Virus record (IMG/VR): IMGVR_UViG_3300005529_001117
Location: 1-28,703 of that record
From: a virus
Length of the DNA stretch: 28,703 nucleotides
Direction: 5' to 3' (one strand)
In this document: positions 2,205-11,880 of the stretch, piece by piece
Layout of the letters: each line of letters opens with the position of its first letter
How positions within the stretch are numbered: the stretch's first letter is position 1
The notes under the pieces: generated by a model
Database searches by the model: none
What the model was told of the DNA's origin: nothing
What the model saw: only the letters and a program-made list of their open reading frames with translations
Position numbers and translations under genes: made by a program

Positions 2205-2489
2205 GTGTATCCACCCATTGTGAAGGACACATTGCCGCTCAAAAACCGGGCCGGCGAGACCTTGATGCACGTACGCCGGCAGACCGCGGAGCGCCTGATC
2301 AGCAAAGAGCTGGTGATTCCGAAAGGCACCAAGCACCGGACCCATGCCTTGCTGCTCGCGCCCCAGTTCGATGATTCGGTGGTGGTGTCGCTGTTGCAGT
2401 ACGCCGGGCAGCGCTACGTCCATCGGCGCGAGACCGCGGAGAATCCGCCGCGGGTGTGGATGCATAAGCGCGTTTTGCTGCATGGGTGA
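2205..2489 (+). CDS. Hypothetical protein preceding small terminase (94 aa)
   Basis: A 94-aa protein of unknown function with a GTG start. The start is supported by GAGG at 2192-2195, 9 nt upstream. The sequence is mixed alpha/beta and basic (HVRRQTAERLISKELVIPKGTKHR split over residues 22-46, then a hydrophobic strand AQFDDSVVVSLLQYAG region and a basic end). No membrane segment or known catalytic motif is seen. The stop codon overlaps the ATG of the small terminase by 8 bp (2482-2489), so the two are probably translationally coupled and the protein is likely a packaging-module accessory. The function is not recognised. Confidence 0.7.
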   Translation: MYPPIVKDTLPLKNRAGETLMHVRRQTAERLISKELVIPKGTKHRTHALLLAPQFDDSVVVSLLQYAGQRYVHRRETAENPPRVWMHKRVLLHG

Positions 2490-2970
2490 CAGCGCGCGGG
2501 CCCGGGCGTTTTTGAAGGCCTACCGGGAGACCGCGTCGATTACCAAAGCGGCCCAGGCCGCCAAGGTCGACCGCACGCGGCACTATCGCTGGTTCCAGGC
2601 GAGCGGCCGGTACCGGATGGCGTTTGAGCGCGCGAAAGAAGAGGCCATGCAGGCGCTTGAAGACGAAGCCATCCGGCGCGCGTACGAGGGCTGGAACGAA
2701 CCGGTTTTCTACAAGGGCGAGAAATGCGGCGCGATCCGGCGCTACTCCGACGGCCTGATGATGTTCCTGCTGCGCGGCGGGATGCCGGCCAAGTACCGCG
2801 AGAATTACAAGCTCGAACTGGCGGGGCCGGCGGGCGGCCCGATCCCGGTCGAGCAGCAGCGATTGCAGACATTGAACGATGACGAGCTCGGCGAACTGCT
2901 CCGCATTGCTCGAAAGCTTGCCTCCGATCGAACTGATCGAGGCGGAACTGAGCCGGCGGCAGCGGAATAA
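2482..2970 (+). CDS. terS: Phage terminase small subunit
   Basis: A 162-aa small terminase subunit, which recognises the packaging site and delivers concatemeric DNA to the large subunit. Residues 10-40 form a helix-turn-helix of the type seen in these subunits (KAYRETASITKAAQAAKVDR followed by HYRWF). Next comes an acidic helix (EEAMQALEDEAIRRAYEG). Then comes a conserved stretch, EPVFYKGEKCGAIRRYSDG (residues 73-91), and the LLRGGMPAKYRE signature around 96-107. A longer frame exists upstream of 2482, but its N-terminal 46 residues are cysteine/arginine-rich and overlap the previous gene, so I chose the ATG at 2482. Translation is probably coupled to the preceding gene through the 8-bp overlap. 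The 3' end overlaps the large subunit by 92 bp. Confidence 0.88.
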   Translation: MGDSARARAFLKAYRETASITKAAQAAKVDRTRHYRWFQASGRYRMAFERAKEEAMQALEDEAIRRAYEGWNEPVFYKGEKCGAIRRYSDGLMMFLLRGGMPAKYRENYKLELAGPAGGPIPVEQQRLQTLNDDELGELLRIARKLASDRTDRGGTEPAAAE

Positions 2971-4333
2971 GATCGCGCGGTACTTCCCCGACGAAGGTAA
3001 ATACGCGCGGGCTCTCTATCCCAAGCAGCTCGCCTTTTTCGAAGCCGGGGCCAAGTACCGCGAGCGCTGCTTCATGGCCGGCAACCGGGTCGGCAAATCG
3101 GACGCGGGCGCCTATGAGCTCACGCTGCACCTGACCGGCCGGTATCCCGGCTGGTGGCGGGGCAAGCGCTTCACCCGGCCGGTGCGTGTCTGGGCCGCGG
3201 GCGACACGTCGAAGACTGTGCGCGAGATCGTGCAGGAAAAGCTGCTGGGGCCGCCGGGCGCGCACGGCACGGGCATGATCCCGGGCGACGCGATCCTTAA
3301 AACCACCACGAAATCGGGCGTGGCCGACGCGATCGATACCGTCTGGGTGCGGCATGCTGCGGGCGGGCATTCGATGCTCGTGCTGAAATCCTATGACCAG
3401 CGCCGCGAGTCCTTCCAGGGCACCGAGCAGGACGTGATCTGGCTCGACGAAGAGCCCGACCAGGGGATCTACACCGAGTGCCTGCTGCGCACGATGACGT
3501 CGAACGGGATCGTGCTGCTCACGTTCACGCCGCTGTTAGGCCTCTCCGACGTAGTGCTCTCGTTTCTGCCGGGCGGCGATCTCGACCGCGCCGCGGCGAC
3601 CGGCAAGTTTCTGGTGACCTGCACGTGGGACGAAGTGCCGCACCTGACGCCCGAGGCGCGGGACGAGCTGTGGCTCGCAATACCGCCGCACCAGCGCGAG
3701 TGCCGCTCCAAGGGCGTGCCCGTGATGGGCGCGGGCGCGATCTACCCGGTACCCGAGGAAGACATCGTGGTGGCCGACTTCGAGCTGCCGAAGCACTGGC
3801 CGCGCTGCTATGGGCTGGATGTGGGCTGGAACCGCACGGCCGCGGTCTGGGGCGCGCTCGACCGCGACACCGACGTGCTCTATCTCTACAGCGAATACTA
3901 CCGCGGCGACGCCGAGCCGTCGGTGCACGCGCACGCGATCCGCGCCCGCGGCGAATGGATTCCGGGCGTGATCGATCCGGCGGCGCGCGGCCGCAGCCAG
4001 GTGGACGGCCGGCAGCTCGTCCAGATGTACCGCGACCTGGGCCTGGATCTGGCCGAAGCGCAGAACGCGGTCGAGGCCGGGATCTATGAAGTGTGGCAGC
4101 GCATGTCATCGGGCCGGCTGAAGGTGTTCCGCTCGCTTTCGAATTATCTCGAAGAGCGGCGGCTGTACCGGCGCGACGAGAAGGGCAAGATCGTGAAGGA
4201 AAAAGATCATTTGCAAGATGGGGTCCGCTATCTGGTGATGAGTGGCATCGAGCGCGCCGTGACGATGCCCGCGCCCAAGCAGGAGATTAAATTCACGCCG
4301 AGCTGGGGCGGCGGCGGGAGTTGGATGACGTGA
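2879..4333 (+). CDS. terL: Phage terminase large subunit (ATPase/nuclease)
   Basis: The 484-aa packaging motor: an N-terminal ATPase drives DNA translocation and a C-terminal RNase H-fold nuclease cuts concatemers. Visible motifs are Walker A AGNRVGKS (67-74), Walker B VIWLDEE (186-192), coupling motif LLTFTP (213-218) and nuclease acidic residues D314 (GLDVGW), D366 (VIDPAA) and D447 (LQDGVRY). The arrangement and length fit P22 gp2-like headful terminases. The ATG at 2879 lies 92 bp inside the small subunit gene; the next in-frame ATG is within the Walker A region, so the start is either 2879 or a nearby TTG. The last 41 bp overlap the end of a leftward gene (4293-4511) tail to tail. That suggests the toxin-antitoxin island was inserted directly behind terL. 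Confidence 0.93.
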   Translation: MTSSANCSALLESLPPIELIEAELSRRQRNKIARYFPDEGKYARALYPKQLAFFEAGAKYRERCFMAGNRVGKSDAGAYELTLHLTGRYPGWWRGKRFTRPVRVWAAGDTSKTVREIVQEKLLGPPGAHGTGMIPGDAILKTTTKSGVADAIDTVWVRHAAGGHSMLVLKSYDQRRESFQGTEQDVIWLDEEPDQGIYTECLLRTMTSNGIVLLTFTPLLGLSDVVLSFLPGGDLDRAAATGKFLVTCTWDEVPHLTPEARDELWLAIPPHQRECRSKGVPVMGAGAIYPVPEEDIVVADFELPKHWPRCYGLDVGWNRTAAVWGALDRDTDVLYLYSEYYRGDAEPSVHAHAIRARGEWIPGVIDPAARGRSQVDGRQLVQMYRDLGLDLAEAQNAVEAGIYEVWQRMSSGRLKVFRSLSNYLEERRLYRRDEKGKIVKEKDHLQDGVRYLVMSGIERAVTMPAPKQEIKFTPSWGGGGSWMT

Positions 4334-4511
4334 GCGAGCGTTGGCGCATGCAGTCGCGGCAGCGGCAGCGCGGCGTGTCCGGGTTGTGCTGCTTCCAGTA
4401 TTTCCCGCCCGAGTACGAAGCGCGCTTGCGCGCGTTCCGGCGCGCCCGCTCCGCTTTCAGGACTTCGTCGGGAATGGTTGCGGGATCGATGTCTTTCGTC
4501 CAGCGTTTCAT
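4293..4511 (-). CDS. 72-aa basic CxCxxC protein, last gene of TA island
   Basis: A small protein beginning MKRWTKDIDPATIPDE, followed by a basic helix (KAERARRNARKRAS), the stretch YSGGKYWKQHNP and a cysteine cluster CRCRDC. The cluster could bind a metal or RNA. I recognise the general form as a small hypothetical protein seen next to HicB-like genes, but I know no assigned function. The ATG overlaps the stop of the upstream HicB gene as ATGA (4508-4511), so it belongs to the same translationally coupled unit. The C-terminal 13 codons run antisense over the end of terL. A longer upstream extension in the same frame is arginine-rich and overlaps hicB, so I rejected it. It could be a third TA component, an RNA-binding regulator or a passenger. 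Confidence 0.65.
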   Translation of the reverse strand: MKRWTKDIDPATIPDEVLKAERARRNARKRASYSGGKYWKQHNPDTPRCRCRDCMRQRSLTSSNSRRRPSSA

Positions 4512-4723
4512 GCGACCTCGGCGTATTCCACCTGTGTGGTGGGTTCCGGGATGGGATCGCCGTCTTCGCGCATGCCTTCGAGATGAAACTCGATCGCTTC
4601 GCGGATGTTGCGGCGCACCTCTTCGAGCGTATCGCCCGTGGACACGCAGCCGGGAAGATCGGGAACCGATGCGCAATAATTGCTGCCCGGCGCCTTCTCG
4701 ATTACGACAGCGTATTGCCTCAT
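4508..4723 (-). CDS. hicB: HicB-family antitoxin-like protein (orphan)
   Basis: A 71-aa protein with the HicB partial RNase H-like fold: YAVVIEKAPGSNYCASVPDL, then PGC and a TLEEVRRNIREAIEFHLEGM helix (residues 4-52). HicB proteins bind and neutralise the HicA mRNA interferase and often repress their own promoter through a separate DNA-binding domain. This one is short and has no C-terminal HTH or ribbon-helix-helix after about residue 55. No HicA gene is adjacent; its neighbours are the brnA-like gene upstream (ATGA overlap at 4720-4723) and the 72-aa Cys protein downstream (ATGA overlap at 4508-4511). It could be an orphan antitoxin, could act with the HicA at 11668, or the 72-aa protein may be an unfamiliar partner. 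Confidence 0.82.
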   Translation of the reverse strand: MRQYAVVIEKAPGSNYCASVPDLPGCVSTGDTLEEVRRNIREAIEFHLEGMREDGDPIPEPTTQVEYAEVA

Positions 4724-4920
4724 TTCATCGCCTCGACGATCGAGATGTCCTGGCTCAGCAGCTCGTTTACCAGCTCGTTCAGCGATGTGCCCTTCCGCTC
4801 CGCGGCGGCGGAAAGGTAGGTTTGCAAATGCTCGTCCAGATATACCGGGATGCGAAGCGTTGCATCGGGCCGGTAAAACTTGCCGCGTTCGGCGTTTTGA
4901 AAATCGTAGTGATCTCTCAT
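4720..4920 (-). CDS. brnA: BrnA-like ribbon-helix-helix antitoxin
   Basis: A 66-aa protein immediately downstream of a BrnT-type toxin. A basic/aromatic N-terminal arm (RDHYDFQNAERGKFYRP) is followed by a ribbon-helix-helix-like unit: strand ATLRIPVYL and helices EHLQTYLSAAAERKG and SLNELVNELLSQD (residues 20-60). Known BrnA antitoxins bind BrnT and, as RHH dimers, repress the brnTA promoter. This one is shorter than typical BrnA and could instead be called a CopG-like antitoxin. Its start overlaps the brnT stop by 4 bp (4917-4920). The likely operator is the inverted repeat at 5237-5254. Confidence 0.78.
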   Translation of the reverse strand: MRDHYDFQNAERGKFYRPDATLRIPVYLDEHLQTYLSAAAERKGTSLNELVNELLSQDISIVEAMK

Positions 4921-5222
4921 TGGTGTTCCTCGTATTCGTGGATCTCGGCGCGATTGGCCGGGCGAGCGGAAATGATGCGTACCCGAGCGCTGGAAGGGCT
5001 CAGATCTTGCCAGGTGTGAATCACGAGGAGCATCTGGCCATTGCTGGCGTGCCCGATGCTGATCCAGCGCTCTTCGGTTTCGGAATGGTCCGGATCGGGA
5101 ATCGTCCGAGCGAGCGGATCCAAAAAGATCGTCGCGCCCGTTTCGAACGAGATTCCATGCTTGCGCAGATTTTCAACGGCCTTTTTCGGATCCCATTCGA
5201 ACTGATGTTCAAAGCCGCTCAC
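4917..5222 (-). CDS. brnT: BrnT-family ribonuclease toxin
   Basis: A 101-aa BrnT-type toxin, a RelE-fold ribonuclease family that inhibits translation and is neutralised by BrnA. The family signature is clear: FEWDPKKAVENLRKHGISFE (residues 8-27), LDPLARTIPD, the ERWISIGHASNGQMLLVIHT strands (51-70) and the C-terminal RIISARPANRAEIHEYEE (82-99) containing the conserved Arg/Glu residues. The start is GTG at 5222, exactly where transcription would begin from the promoter at 5229-5257, so the mRNA is probably leaderless; there is no Shine-Dalgarno sequence. It is the first gene of a four-gene leftward island in which every junction is an ATGA overlap. It lies between terL and the portal gene, antisense to late transcription, as a moron would. 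Confidence 0.88.
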   Translation of the reverse strand: MSGFEHQFEWDPKKAVENLRKHGISFETGATIFLDPLARTIPDPDHSETEERWISIGHASNGQMLLVIHTWQDLSPSSARVRIISARPANRAEIHEYEEHQ

Positions 5223-5228
5223 GAAGCC

Positions 5229-5257
5229 AGTATCTCACAGATGCTAGTATCTGTCAA
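5229..5257 (-). promoter_or_regulatory. Promoter of the brnT island, leaderless
   Basis: On the minus strand TTGACA (5257-5252) is followed by a 17-bp spacer and GATACT (5234-5229). The predicted +1 is 5222, the first base of the brnT GTG codon. The -35 is a perfect consensus match. The region ends 8 bp before the portal ATG on the other strand. Confidence 0.75.
5237..5254. promoter_or_regulatory. Candidate BrnA operator (inverted repeat)
   Basis: Arms ACAGAT (5237-5242) and ATCTGT (5249-5254) form a perfect 6-bp inverted repeat with a 6-bp centre, lying in the -10/-35 spacer and touching the -35 box. A direct repeat AGTATCT also occurs at 5229-5235 and 5246-5252. Binding by the ribbon-helix-helix antitoxin would block RNA polymerase, the usual autoregulation of such operons. 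Confidence 0.6.
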
Positions 5258-5265
5258 GTAAATTG

Positions 5266-7410
5266 ATGGCCATCTCGCACAAAGATCTGCTCGAGACGGC
5301 GCGCAAGCGCTTTGCGCTGGCGAAGTCGGAAGAGGAGGAAATCCGGCGCGAGGCCAAGAAGGACCTGGCGTTTCTGGCCGGCGAGCAGTGGGACGCGCGC
5401 ACGAAGCACGAGCGCGAGAGGGCGGGCCGGCCGGCGCTGGTGATCAACAAGCTGCCCACCTTCGTCCAGCAGGTGGTGAACGACGCGCGGTCGAACAAGC
5501 CCGCGATCAAGGTATCGCCCAAAGAATCAGGCGTCAACACCGATACGCGCGACGTGGTGCAGGGCCTGATCCGGCATATCGAGTACGACTCCGACGCCGA
5601 CGTGGCGTATAACACCGCCGAAGAGTACGCAGTCTCGTGCGGGTTCGGCTACTACCGCCTGGTCACGGAGTATTGCGAGGAGCGCAGCTTCGATCAGGAA
5701 ATCAAGATCAAGCGCATCGCCGATCCGTTCACGGTGTACTTTGATCCGGCGGCGAAGGAAGTGGACCGCTCCGACGCCGACTGGTGTTTCGTGGTCGAGT
5801 CCTACTCGAAAGACGAGTTCGCCGCGCGCTGGCCCAAGGCCGAAGCGTCGAGCTCGAATTTCTTCGCGGGCGCGAGCGATGAGGACGGCTGGTTCACCGA
5901 AGATCAGGTGCGCGTGGCCGAGTATTGGTACGTCGAGATGGAGCCGCGCACGCTGGTGCTGCTGTCGACCGGCGAGACCGCCTTCGACGACGAGCTGCCC
6001 GAGGAGCTGCCCGAAGGCGTCGAGGCGCTGAAAGAGCGCGAGGTCACGGTGCGCACGGTGAAGTGCGCGGTGATCAACGGCCAGGAAGTGCTTGAAGAGA
6101 ACGACTGGCCGGGGCAGTGGATCCCGATCGTGCCGGTATGGGGCAAAGAGCTGATGGTCGACGGCAAGCGCAAGCTGTTCTCGCTGATCCGCTGGCAGCG
6201 CGACCCGCAGCAGCTCTTTAACTACTACAAAACGGCGATGGCCGAAACGGTGGGCCTGTCGCCCAAGGCGCCGTGGATCGGCGTCGAAGGCCAGTTCGCG
6301 GGCCATGAGGCCGAGTGGCAGACGGCGAACTTGGCGCTGCATCCGTACCTGGAATACAAGCCGGTATCGCTCAACGGGCAGCCGGCGCCGCCGCCGCAAC
6401 GCCAGGTTTACGAGCCGCCGATTCAGGCGCTCTCGGTGGGCGCGATGCAGGCGTCGGACGATATGAAGGCGACGGCGGGGATTTTCGATGCGTCGCTGGG
6501 CGCGCAGGGCAACGAGACGTCGGGCATCGCGATCGCGCGCCGGCAGCGCGAATCGGATGTCGCCAATTTTCATTTTCTCGACAACCTGGCGCGCGCGCAG
6601 CGGCATACGGGCCGCATGCTGATCGACCTGATCCCCAAGATCTACGACACCGAGCGCGAGATCCGCATCCTGGGTGAAGACATGAAGGAAAAAGTGGTCC
6701 GGGTGAATCGACACTACGTCGATGAAGCGGGCCGTGAGCGCTATTACGACCTGGGAATCGCGAAATACGACGTGACGGTGTCGACCGGGCCAAGCTACAC
6801 CACGGCGCGCCAGGAAGCCTTCGACATGCTCACGCAGTTTGCGCAGGCCTACCCGGCGCTGTTGCAGATGGCGGGCGACATCGTGTTCCGCAATTCCGAT
6901 ATTCCGGGTGCCGATCAGCTCGCCGAGCGGTTTCAGAAGATGCTGCCGCCGCAATTGCAGCCGCAGAGCGATCAGGCCATTCCGCCACAGGCGCAGGCCA
7001 TGATGGCCGAGCAACAGCAGCTCATTCAGCAGTTGGGCGATGCGCTCAAGGGAGTGAATGAAACGATCCGGACGAAGCAGATGGAACTGCTATCGCGCGA
7101 GCGCATCGAGACCATGCGCATCCAGGCAGATCTGATCAAGACCGAAGCACAGATCAATAGCAAAGAAGCGCAGGCGATGCTGCAAGCCGAGATGCAGGCC
7201 ATCCAGCAGAAGCTCGATCAACTGCATGAGGCCGAGATGATGGACACCGAGCACGAGCAGCAGAGGCGCACGCAGCAGGCCGACCAGGCGCACCAGTTCG
7301 GGATGCAGGCGGTCGCCGCCGGCCAGGAGCAGGATATGGCGGCGCTCAACCAGCAGTTCAACCCCGAATTGATGCCGAATGAGAACGGACAGGCGCTGCC
7401 GGCGACGTAA
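5266..7410 (+). CDS. P22-like portal protein
   Basis: A 714-aa portal protein, the dodecameric ring at the capsid vertex through which DNA enters and leaves. Size and sequence fit the P22 gp1 portal family (about 725 aa). The N-terminal region reads KDLAFLAGEQWD (about 26-37), RAGRPALVINKLP and VNDARSNKP; then come DPFTVYFDP, DADWCFV and the core around ETVGLSPKAPWIG and NETSGIAIARRQRESD. From about residue 560 to the end the sequence is glutamine-rich and helical, matching the long C-terminal barrel of P22-type portals. I chose ATG 5266 over an in-frame TTG at 5263. No strong Shine-Dalgarno sequence is visible. The gene is separated from terL by the leftward brnT island, whose promoter lies just upstream. 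Confidence 0.92.
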   Translation: MAISHKDLLETARKRFALAKSEEEEIRREAKKDLAFLAGEQWDARTKHERERAGRPALVINKLPTFVQQVVNDARSNKPAIKVSPKESGVNTDTRDVVQGLIRHIEYDSDADVAYNTAEEYAVSCGFGYYRLVTEYCEERSFDQEIKIKRIADPFTVYFDPAAKEVDRSDADWCFVVESYSKDEFAARWPKAEASSSNFFAGASDEDGWFTEDQVRVAEYWYVEMEPRTLVLLSTGETAFDDELPEELPEGVEALKEREVTVRTVKCAVINGQEVLEENDWPGQWIPIVPVWGKELMVDGKRKLFSLIRWQRDPQQLFNYYKTAMAETVGLSPKAPWIGVEGQFAGHEAEWQTANLALHPYLEYKPVSLNGQPAPPPQRQVYEPPIQALSVGAMQASDDMKATAGIFDASLGAQGNETSGIAIARRQRESDVANFHFLDNLARAQRHTGRMLIDLIPKIYDTEREIRILGEDMKEKVVRVNRHYVDEAGRERYYDLGIAKYDVTVSTGPSYTTARQEAFDMLTQFAQAYPALLQMAGDIVFRNSDIPGADQLAERFQKMLPPQLQPQSDQAIPPQAQAMMAEQQQLIQQLGDALKGVNETIRTKQMELLSRERIETMRIQADLIKTEAQINSKEAQAMLQAEMQAIQQKLDQLHEAEMMDTEHEQQRRTQQADQAHQFGMQAVAAGQEQDMAALNQQFNPELMPNENGQALPAT

Positions 7411-7417
7411 CAGTTCC

Positions 7418-7433
7418 GGCCCACGGGTGGGCC
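7418..7433 (+). terminator. Hairpin after portal gene, possible weak terminator
   Basis: A perfect 6-bp GC stem GGCCCA/TGGGCC (7418-7423/7428-7433) with a 4-nt loop sits 7 bp after the portal stop. Only TTG follows, so termination would be weak; it may reduce read-through or stabilise the upstream mRNA end. Confidence 0.4.
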
Positions 7434-7457
7434 TTGTACGCCCGGAATTGAATCCAC

Positions 7458-8360
7458 ATGAGTGACGAACCACAAACACCGGAACCGGTGATACCCGAGG
7501 ACTACCTGGCGTACGAGCGCTGGCGCGAGACCGGGGAATTGCCGGCCGAAAGCAAGCCAGAATCTTCCGCGGCGCCGGACGAAGCCGAGAAGGCCGAGCC
7601 GGAAGCCAAAACCGCCGAGGAGTCGGAACCCTCTCAACCGGAGCAGGAAACCAAGGAAGGCGACGAGGACGAGAAGCCGCAGCCGAAAGGCGGCTTCCAG
7701 CGCCGCATCGACAGACTGACACGCGAAAAATACGAGCTCCAGGCCCAACTCGAGGCCGCGCAACGGCAACTGGCGGCCAAGCCCGCTGCGCCTGCCGAAG
7801 CGCCCAAGCCCGCACCGAACGGCAAGCCCAAGCTCGAAGACTACGACACGCACGAGGAGTTTGTCGAAGCGCTGACGGACTGGAAGATCGCGCAGAAGAC
7901 GCAGGAGTTCAGCGAGCGCGCGGCGCGCGAGAAAGCGCAGGCCGAACAGCAGGCCAAGCAGCAGACCTGGCTGGAGCGCAAGGCCGAGGCGGCGAAGCGA
8001 ATCCCGGATCTGGAGGAAGTGCTCGATCAGGAGCTGCCGCTTACGCCCGCCATGCGCGATACGATCCTCGAATCCGAGAAGGGGCCGGACCTGGCCTACT
8101 GGCTGGGCACGCACCCGACCGAATGCGCCCGCATCGCGAAGCTCTCGCCGCTCGCCGCAGCGCGCGAGCTAGGCCGCGTGGAAGCGTCTTTCGAAAAACC
8201 GCCTGCGCCGGAATCGAAGAAAGTCACCAACGCGCCCAAGCCGATCAAACCCGTAGCCGGGGCCAAATCCGCCGCGCCGCCGAATGTCTACGACGAGGCG
8301 ACCGCGGCCGATTACCCGGCATGGGAGCGAGCGAGACTGGCGCAACTCAAGAGGAGTTAG
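7458..8360 (+). CDS. P22 gp8-like scaffolding protein
   Basis: A 300-aa highly charged, helical protein between portal and coat genes, the position and length (P22 gp8 is 303 aa) of the scaffolding protein that directs procapsid assembly and then leaves. The N-terminal third is acidic and low-complexity (E/P/A-rich, residues 1-78). A helical section follows: RRIDRLTREKYELQAQLEAAQ (82-102) and THEEFVEALTDWK (131-143). Then comes a long alanine/glutamine coiled coil (about 145-175). The C-terminal 40 residues are basic and proline-rich (PKPIKPVAGAKSA), consistent with the basic coat-binding end of scaffolds. No catalytic motif is present. The start is an ATG 48 bp after the portal stop, without a strong Shine-Dalgarno sequence. 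Assignment relies on position, size and composition more than on a unique motif. Confidence 0.82.
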   Translation: MSDEPQTPEPVIPEDYLAYERWRETGELPAESKPESSAAPDEAEKAEPEAKTAEESEPSQPEQETKEGDEDEKPQPKGGFQRRIDRLTREKYELQAQLEAAQRQLAAKPAAPAEAPKPAPNGKPKLEDYDTHEEFVEALTDWKIAQKTQEFSERAAREKAQAEQQAKQQTWLERKAEAAKRIPDLEEVLDQELPLTPAMRDTILESEKGPDLAYWLGTHPTECARIAKLSPLAAARELGRVEASFEKPPAPESKKVTNAPKPIKPVAGAKSAAPPNVYDEATAADYPAWERARLAQLKRS

Positions 8361-11221: not shown

Positions 11222-11656
11222 TCACGCCGCGTTTTCCACGGCCAGCACGACGCTCTGGCCGAGCACCTCGAGGGCTGCCTGGAGTTTTTCCGGCTTGGTC
11301 GCGTGATCCGGGTCCAGCATCCTACGCACCACGGTTTCGCGCACGCCGAGCTTGCGGGCGAGCGCGGAGTTGTTCATGCCGAGCTCGCGCATCCGCCAGT
11401 AGAGTGCCAGCTTCGGCGCGACCCAGAGCGGCACGGGGACCAGTTTTTGCCCGCGCTTTGGCGCCGACGGACGCGGGATCTCCTGCTTATCCGCGAGCGC
11501 GAACGCGATCGCGCTGCCGAGGCAATCGATCGCTTCCTCGAGCGCCTCTACCGCAGACGCTCCATCGGTCGCCGATCGCGGGAAATCCGGGAAGAGCACC
11601 AGGACTCTGCCATCCTTGTCCTTCCGAAACGTTGCCGGGTAACTCAATGCGAACAT
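11222..11656 (-). CDS. hicB: HicB antitoxin with C-terminal HTH
   Basis: A 144-aa HicB antitoxin. The N-terminal part has the degenerate RNase H-like fold (FALSYPATFRKDKDGRVLV, FPDFPRSATDG, then VEALEEAIDCLGSAIAFAL, residues 2-57) that blocks HicA. A proline/lysine linker leads to an XRE-type helix-turn-helix (RELGMNNSALARKLGVRETVVRRML, about 94-118) for autorepression. The start at 11656 is supported by GGGAGG 5-10 nt upstream; a longer in-frame extension overlaps hicA and is rejected. It lies 11 bp downstream of hicA and ends 30 bp from the Thivi_2564-like gene on the other strand. Its operator is probably the perfect palindrome at 11891-11908. Confidence 0.9.
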   Translation of the reverse strand: MFALSYPATFRKDKDGRVLVLFPDFPRSATDGASAVEALEEAIDCLGSAIAFALADKQEIPRPSAPKRGQKLVPVPLWVAPKLALYWRMRELGMNNSALARKLGVRETVVRRMLDPDHATKPEKLQAALEVLGQSVVLAVENAA

Positions 11657-11667
11657 GGTGACCTCCC

Positions 11668-11880
11668 TTATAGATCGCTGGGCTTGATTCCCAAATCGCG
11701 GCACATTTTGCTGAGCAGGCCTGCGCCGATTTCTTTCTTCGGGTCCTTCAATGCGGTGAAATTCGGACCGAGAAATACACGGCCATGGCTGCCCTTGCCC
11801 TTGCCGGGATCAAACGACATGCTCAAGCCGCGAGTCCTCGCCACTTTACCCAGCCGCCGGAGGAACTCGCTGCCCTTCAT
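11668..11880 (-). CDS. hicA: HicA mRNA interferase toxin
   Basis: A 70-aa HicA-family toxin, a small double-stranded-RNA-binding-fold protein that cleaves mRNA and is neutralised by HicB. Family features are the N-terminal helix KGSEFLRRLGKVART, the loop with the catalytic-type histidine H32 (KGSHGRVFLG) and the C-terminal EIGAGLLSKMCRDLGIK helix (50-66). The usual GSHH has become GSHG, so only one histidine is kept. I chose ATG 11880 over the in-frame ATG at 11898 because the predicted transcription start is 11880 itself. GAGG just upstream of 11880 would serve only if a longer transcript exists. hicA precedes hicB, the common order. The pair lies directly upstream of, and divergent from, the gp10-like gene. 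Confidence 0.88.
   Translation of the reverse strand: MKGSEFLRRLGKVARTRGLSMSFDPGKGKGSHGRVFLGPNFTALKDPKKEIGAGLLSKMCRDLGIKPSDL

Follow-up and report, generated by a model that had tools for sequence, protein, structure and literature searches.

Four small genes lie in antisense between the terminase large subunit gene (terL) and the portal gene of a phage, and the question they raise is whether they form one functional unit and, if not, what holds them together. The locus is found in the virus record IMGVR_UViG_3300005529_001117, which is analysed here as a whole (28,703 bases; hereafter the window). On the minus strand the order is brnT (4917-5222), a short ribbon-helix-helix (RHH) gene (4720-4920), a hicB-like gene (4508-4723) and a gene for a 72-amino-acid Cys protein, here called g72 (4293-4511), with terL on one side of the block and portal on the other. 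The genes are joined by three ATGA overlaps (4917-4920, 4720-4723 and 4508-4511); elsewhere in the window 1 of 27 junctions in a hand-picked gene list has such a 4-nt overlap. The original prediction for this DNA had given these coordinates, overlaps and antisense placement, all of which were confirmed, and had interpreted the block as one functional unit mixing parts of two toxin-antitoxin (TA) families. With moderate confidence we favour another reading, in which the block is a moron cassette set in antisense in a temperate P22-like phage, its exchangeable cargo being framed by a constant promoter/operator and a constant end gene. The cargo is best read from its sequence as a putative BrnT module for addiction or defence, together with a stray antitoxin. 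The four open reading frames (ORFs) are taken as genes and not as chance because of the BrnT and HicB domain matches, the RHH family beside brnT, and relatives of g72 with dN below dS (nonsynonymous and synonymous divergence).

The evidence that carries this reading comes from a second contig, L144 (14,236 bases, full length), which holds the first relative of g72 and was found through g72 alone. This contig, otherwise unrelated to the window, has an antisense cassette bounded by the promoter/operator on one side and by g72 on the other, and the genes between them are different. The head of the L144 block, TTGACAGATACATGCATCTGTGA, is identical to that of the window, TTGACAGATACTAGCATCTGTGA, at 21 of 23 positions, and the shared bases span TTGACAGATAC to GCATCTGTGA. 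In both cassettes the first start codon is at position 36, counted from the first T. Among 3000 random 60-mers from fetched loci, the closest agreed at 18 of 23 positions. When the window was compared with L144 by blastn, g72 was the sole strong match (77% over 119 nt, E 3e-20). Three matches had E 0.028, among them that of the promoter (23 nt), which alone of the three brackets a cassette with g72. Among window ORFs of at least 60 amino acids, matches to L144 at E<=0.001 were confined to the g72 frame and two shadow ORFs antisense to it; two further short matches had E 0.005 and E 0.007. L144 has its own terminase genes, different from those of the window. Its cassette consists of genes of 57, 36, 73 and 64 amino acids with start-stop overlaps of 1, 1 and 8 nt, opposes the strand of terS (terminase small subunit gene) and terL at about 600 nt from terS, and stands tail-to-tail with a preceding ORF without a clear family. 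Since the 5' control element and the 3' gene are common to both cassettes and the genes between them differ, the cargo appears to have been exchanged, probably by recombination within the shared ends.

The promoter of the window cassette (5229-5257, minus strand) has a -35 hexamer TTGACA (5257-5252), a 17-nt spacer and a -10 hexamer GATACT (5234-5229), and agrees with the consensus at 10 of 12 positions. It is the sole promoter-like site in 4000-5500, where 0.4 were expected from shuffles. The GTG of brnT begins 6 nt past the -10, so the brnT mRNA is probably leaderless. Between the hexamers, and partly over them, lies the imperfect palindrome CAGATACTAGCATCTG (5238-5253, minus strand), a candidate operator with arms complementary at 7 of 8 positions, and a 7-nt direct repeat, AGATACT, recurs at the -10. 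When the 43-nt intergenic stretch was shuffled 5000 times, palindrome and repeat came together in 0.3% of the shuffles, in a test chosen post hoc. The gene block had been seen in the original prediction, while its own promoter/operator and the match of this element in L144 had been overlooked.

The palindrome arms are also present in other phage promoters, and this favours a plainer explanation, namely that brnT and the RHH gene are a moron that brought its promoter along, that hicB and g72 are chance cotranscribed neighbours, and that the likeness to L144 is convergence without any common frame. A scan of viral contigs for TTGACAGAT-N6-ATCTGTGA matched 18 contigs: L144, 15 contigs (within the range L132-L148) in four other phage-promoter groups with a placed -10 (TATAAT, TAGAAT, TAAAAT or GATAAT) and the palindrome within the promoter, and two without a -10. 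None of the 17 contigs other than L144 had g72 within 2.5 kb downstream, and one contig per group showed no ORF of at least 30 amino acids starting with ATG or GTG at the distance seen in the window and L144. The central AC..GC is, among promoter-type matches, common to just these two cassettes. L144, moreover, was found without use of the promoter, yet has it at the matching place, with the identity given above and an equal distance to the start codon. We consider the plainer explanation doubtful, though a serious possibility. No tRNAs were found in L132-L135 or L144. The promoter stretch of the window gave no match to phage records, and that of L144 matched 57 phage records up to E 10, with the best shown at E 6; of two that were opened, the annotated one has the match within a coding gene. 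As a separate observation, the record MG065636 (L169), named Campylobacter phage A16a, has a Drexlerviridae (Hanrivervirus) taxonomy like that of Shigella phage pSf-1; the record is marked unverified, and its host label may be wrong. A host regulon was looked for in 297 genomes of the first phylum with the pattern ACAGATRCnnGYATCTGT (<=1 mismatch) and was rejected there, with 10 sites in 9 genomes against 11 for the reversed control; two of the ten sites were exact, neither was a TTGACA promoter, and no g72 was near.

The first gene of the cassette encodes a BrnT-family ribonuclease toxin (101 amino acids, GTG start; PF04365, E 4.9e-26, score 91.3 against a cut-off of 34.5 bits; phrog_4399), with chain A of 7vd7 as a solved relative (E 3.3e-13). 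The residues D11, K14, K21, H22, F33 and E93 are invariant in an alignment of six sequences. Judged by spacing and not by alignment with Aave_1720, residues of this BrnT may correspond to Lys-17, His-18, Phe-29 and Glu-86 of that protein, which bear on RNase activity, as named in the available part of its description. BrnT is a ribonuclease toxin that is held by its antitoxin in a complex repressing its own operon, according to the accessible portion of PMC5086665. The second gene encodes a short RHH protein of 66 amino acids, presumed to be the antitoxin partner of BrnT. We surveyed the best 80 of 542 confirmed brnT relatives from one genome scan, in stretches of 2.8-5.3 kb each, with profiles grown from the window proteins. 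An RHH gene of this family followed 3' of brnT in 78 of the 80 loci, at a spacing of -29 to +95 nt, and genes 1 and 2 are thus a standard pair. The two genes overlapped in 56 of these 78 loci and by exactly 4 nt in 14, the spacing being taken from the nearest start and therefore biased to short distances. The family also follows brnT on Euhalothece and Leptospira noguchii plasmids, and one relative on an L. interrogans plasmid has no annotated brnT adjoining it. In Pfam the RHH matches of this protein all stayed below threshold, and no BrnA model appeared up to E 10; we therefore describe the pair as BrnT with an RHH partner and not as canonical BrnTA. The prediction of a BrnT toxin with an antitoxin-like partner was thus borne out, and of the label "brnA-like" the antitoxin-like neighbour stood, whereas the affiliation with BrnA has to be qualified. 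By itself such a TA pair is ordinary; the part available of a survey of prophage TA systems includes both brnTA and hicAB (PMC9379143).

The same loci bear on the idea that all four genes make up one TA system, with the RHH protein and HicB both acting on BrnT and g72 as a working part. It has in its favour that all four genes are coupled by ATGA overlaps and that the RHH protein and HicB are both of antitoxin types. Such overlaps are common at brnT-RHH junctions, as the survey showed, and so are no proof of joint function. Among the 80 brnT stretches hicB was found in one (L057), where it begins 163 nt past the RHH gene and forms a separate hicBA pair with a hicA of its own on the 3' side, and g72 was found in none. 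This rarity is not just missing sequence, because the stretch extends past the RHH gene by 1 kb or more in 70 of the 78 placed loci. From the side of g72 the picture was the same, with no match to brnT, the RHH gene or hicB in the whole of L144 (14.2 kb) or in 9.0 of the 51.4 kb of L152, the contig with the other g72 relative. A third gene conserved with the TA pair, as expected of a three-component TA operon, was not seen here, neither hicB nor g72 being conserved with it. The co-occurrence check that accompanied the original prediction, whether hicB and the 72-amino-acid gene track brnTA, was thus run on 80 loci and gave no co-travel, and a single four-part system mixing two TA families now appears very unlikely. 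The plainer brnT-RHH moron considered above gains from these counts, as 79 of the 80 stretches lack hicB, all 80 lack g72 and 78 have the RHH gene, and TA genes cluster generally (contigs L003 and L057, and the available part of PMC10865869).

The RHH protein matches HicB-family RHH models weakly (PF05534, E 0.0056; phrog_9151, E 0.0029), which could mean that it and HicB are the two parts of a split HicB-type antitoxin, or that HicB took over another function in the BrnT complex. In 77 of the 78 placed loci, however, the RHH family stands behind brnT with no hicB present, and a short HicB without the DNA-binding tail is also present in the relatives L120, L122 and L123. We regard this variant as highly improbable.

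The third gene encodes a short HicB-like antitoxin of 71 amino acids (PF15919, E 6.7e-18), and its description as an additional antitoxin-like member of the operon was upheld. Its product shares 75% identity with a HicB from L120, which is encoded in a hicAB pair whose HicA matches PF07927 at E 6.8e-18. Matches to hicB were found in 2 viral contigs, 103 phage records and 95 plasmid records, of which 8 were opened; in all 8 (L120, L122 and six annotated records) hicB stood behind hicA, the hicA of L122 being annotated as hypothetical and assigned by likeness. Two more hicB genes near brnT have an adjoining hicA-like ORF, on the 5' side in L003 and on the 3' side in L057. L121, a sister of L120, and L004, a sister of L003, were not counted separately. 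Among the window ORFs of at least 35 amino acids no HicA profile match was found up to E 0.01, and the hicB of the window is thus an orphan. Solitary hicB genes are mentioned, and frequent clustering of TA genes is reported, in the part available of a survey of HicA contexts (PMC10865869).

The last gene, g72, encodes a basic protein (pI 11.1) with the motif His-x6-Cys-x-Cys-x2-Cys. It gave no match up to E 10 against Pfam, NCBIfam and PADLOC; its best PHROG match had E 0.2, and its best match in a profile search of the PDB had E 0.99. The predicted structure (mean predicted local distance difference test, pLDDT, 63; predicted template modelling score, pTM, 0.35) was too weak for a fold search. 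Two relatives were present in the viral collection, one in L144/L002 with 63% and one in L152 with 48% identity (L129 equals L002 and was not counted separately), and the uncharacterised Cys gene of the original prediction is accordingly real and without a curated family. Between g72 and the L144/L002 relative dN was 0.32 and dS 1.26, which points to selection on the protein. A motif scan returned four contigs, of which L144 and L152 were real and L150 and L151 were rejected as not g72; the weak matches in genomes L130, L131, L163, L164 and L165-L167 were rejected by eye because of a wrong frame, internal stops or a position inside other genes. No believable relative was found in 396, 398, 164, 159 and 161 genomes from the phyla of five metagenome-assembled genomes (MAGs) titled Acidobacteria, Betaproteobacteria, Verrucomicrobia, Planctomycetota and Anaerolineales, in scans that scored no more than 14-15 (later 37-39) first-look candidates in each genome and may have missed some; the scan of 396 genomes used a two-row alignment. 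In L152 g72 is directly followed by restriction-modification-type genes (3306-8359), with matches to an MmeI-type methyltransferase (E 5.9e-8), an Eco57I methylase (E 2.3e-35) and ResIII (E 1e-5), the ResIII protein also having a T5orf172 domain. With TA neighbours in the window and an Eco57I-type methylase and ResIII in L152, g72 keeps company with different cargo. The arrangement in L152 also indicates that g72 is not tied to TA genes, nor always to the operator.

Base composition was compared as G+C content at third codon positions (GC3). The three cargo genes of the window have a GC3 of 0.67-0.73, against 0.83 for core genes, and g72 has 0.85 in the window and 0.83 in L144. In L144 two cargo genes have 0.70 and 0.49 and the flanking genes 0.61-0.72. 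Values computed out of frame, for a non-overlapping part of g72 and for the 36-amino-acid gene, were left aside. Several observations weigh against the exchangeable cassette. The low GC3 of the cargo is reached by 21 of 2091 windows of core sequence and similarly by the integrase gene (0.68), and in L144 the 57-amino-acid cargo gene (0.70) is unremarkable against its flanks, with g72 standing out instead. No terminator was found in 4000-5500. The g72 relative of L152 lies in a run of genes on one strand and lacks the operator, and no copy of the full operator (<=2 mismatches) was found in the 398 genomes of the phylum of the betaproteobacterial MAG, nor in 5 others. The recurrence of the palindrome arms in four other phage-promoter groups leaves room for convergence. 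Autorepression is not certain either, since an Acidovorax BrnT-type system did not bind its own upstream DNA, as stated in the part available of PMC10714953. Finally, only two cassettes with this promoter and g72 were found, and the frame is therefore an inference.

Under the exchangeable cassette, a sigma-70 promoter overlapped by an operator would drive one mRNA, brnT-RHH-hicB-g72, against the late operon, and the cassette genes could be made in the lysogen while the late genes are silent. Judged from its families, the core would be a type II TA pair in which BrnT degrades mRNA in a RelE-like manner and the RHH protein binds BrnT and represses transcription. The pair may serve the prophage in addiction, in abortive defence against other phages, or in both. 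The hicB gene would be a former hicAB antitoxin now standing alone, which most probably counteracts HicA proteins encoded by the host or by other elements, or else is carried along as a passenger; our certainty on this point is low. The reader of the operator may be the RHH protein, g72, or a repressor encoded by the phage or its host. The RHH protein is probably not the sole reader, because the L144 contig has no RHH match. Since no other protein gene is present in both cassettes, g72 is the best candidate within the cassette for acting on the shared operator, and we consider such an action possible but rather unlikely. In a bolder form of the proposal, the two cassettes would represent a class with a leaderless promoter-operator head and a g72 tail that binds the operator and silences the cassette, carrying defence, TA or accessory cargo in antisense beside packaging genes; the window member would then combine a BrnT module with an orphan HicB disarming the HicA of the host or of a rival prophage. 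This form we think unlikely.

The phage itself looks, from its gene content, like a temperate P22-like phage. The window has an integrase gene (1-969), the packaging-side genes terS, terL and portal, and recognisable scaffold, coat, head-tail and ejection genes. On the plus strand terL (2879-4333; phrog_2 terminase large subunit, E 4.2e-33) stands tail-to-tail with g72, which overlaps its 3' end by 41 nt, and portal (5266-7410; phrog_156, E 1.1e-152) stands head-to-head with brnT, with 43 nt between them. Twenty-four contigs were related to the window by portal, and five of them also matched its terL, with the matched parts 6-426 nt apart. None of the four genes gave a match in these 24 contigs or in the stretches of five annotated phage records. 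Between terL and portal, MW202557 has no gene, P26218, EBPR podovirus 1 and Vibrio 1.211.A have one small gene each, and DSL-LC05 (L037) has six, including genes for an HNH endonuclease and a GroES homologue. The spot thus takes extra genes, those listed in the relatives all being in sense, and the earlier statement that terL is directly followed by portal holds loosely, the gap in five annotated relatives containing 0, 1 or 6 small genes. Two further observations were made. In the contig closest by portal (L009, 54%), terL is split (2226-4574) by a 323-amino-acid ORF with an HNH endonuclease match (PF01844, E 8.5e-5) between the matching halves, a candidate endonuclease-bearing intron or similar element. 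In the window, a second antisense ORF (11222-11704, minus strand) has weak HicB-like (PF15970, E 0.0054) and HTH_3 (E 0.011) matches, both below cut-offs, and faces a plus-strand ORF of 245 amino acids without a family match.

The locus resembles several known systems in part. As in BrnTA of Brucella abortus (PF04365), the toxin of the BrnT family comes first, an RHH antitoxin follows with an overlap, and the promoter is its own; the window differs in its short RHH antitoxin without a Pfam BrnA match and in its two extra coupled genes. With HicAB of the short HicB subtype (PF15919) it shares a HicB close to that of a hicAB pair, but no hicA was found and hicB stands behind brnT and the RHH gene. 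Three-component TA operons such as paaR-paaA-parE and omega-epsilon-zeta have a regulator as third gene (PMC5086665, in the part available), and they too have more than two genes per operon, one of them lying in a prophage; the extra genes of the window, in contrast, do not track brnT. Promoter- or start-linked palindromic elements are also known in phages. T4-type phages have promoter early stem loops (PeSLs), which are credited with gene shuffling (Arbiol 2010 and Comeau 2014, as cited in the part available of PMC4503421), and cluster K mycobacteriophages have ESAS, which are start-linked inverted repeats (PMC3203893, in the part available). As far as these sources describe them, PeSLs and ESAS recur many times per genome or in related phages, whereas the element of the window is present in one copy, with one more in the unrelated L144 and a fixed last gene.

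Phage morons have their own promoter and carry foreign cargo between late genes. The cassette has such a promoter (in silico, TTGACA-17-GATACT) and foreign cargo missing from the relatives examined, but it is antisense, no terminator was found, and both of its ends are shared with the cassette of an unrelated phage. Prophage-borne BrnT modules and HicB, morons, and shuffling through promoter-linked elements are already known. For brnTA with an orphan hicB, or for the promoter and g72 frame, no report was found in searches of open-licence PubMed Central papers or in the passages cited. The two cassettes give hints that the cargo slots are interchangeable. If the frame is real, unrelated phages would be trading cargo through a promoter and a last gene that they have in common, and TTGACAGATACnnGCATCTGTGA together with g72 would be a sequence handle for collecting phage cargo genes, many of which would likely be unannotated defence or counter-defence genes.

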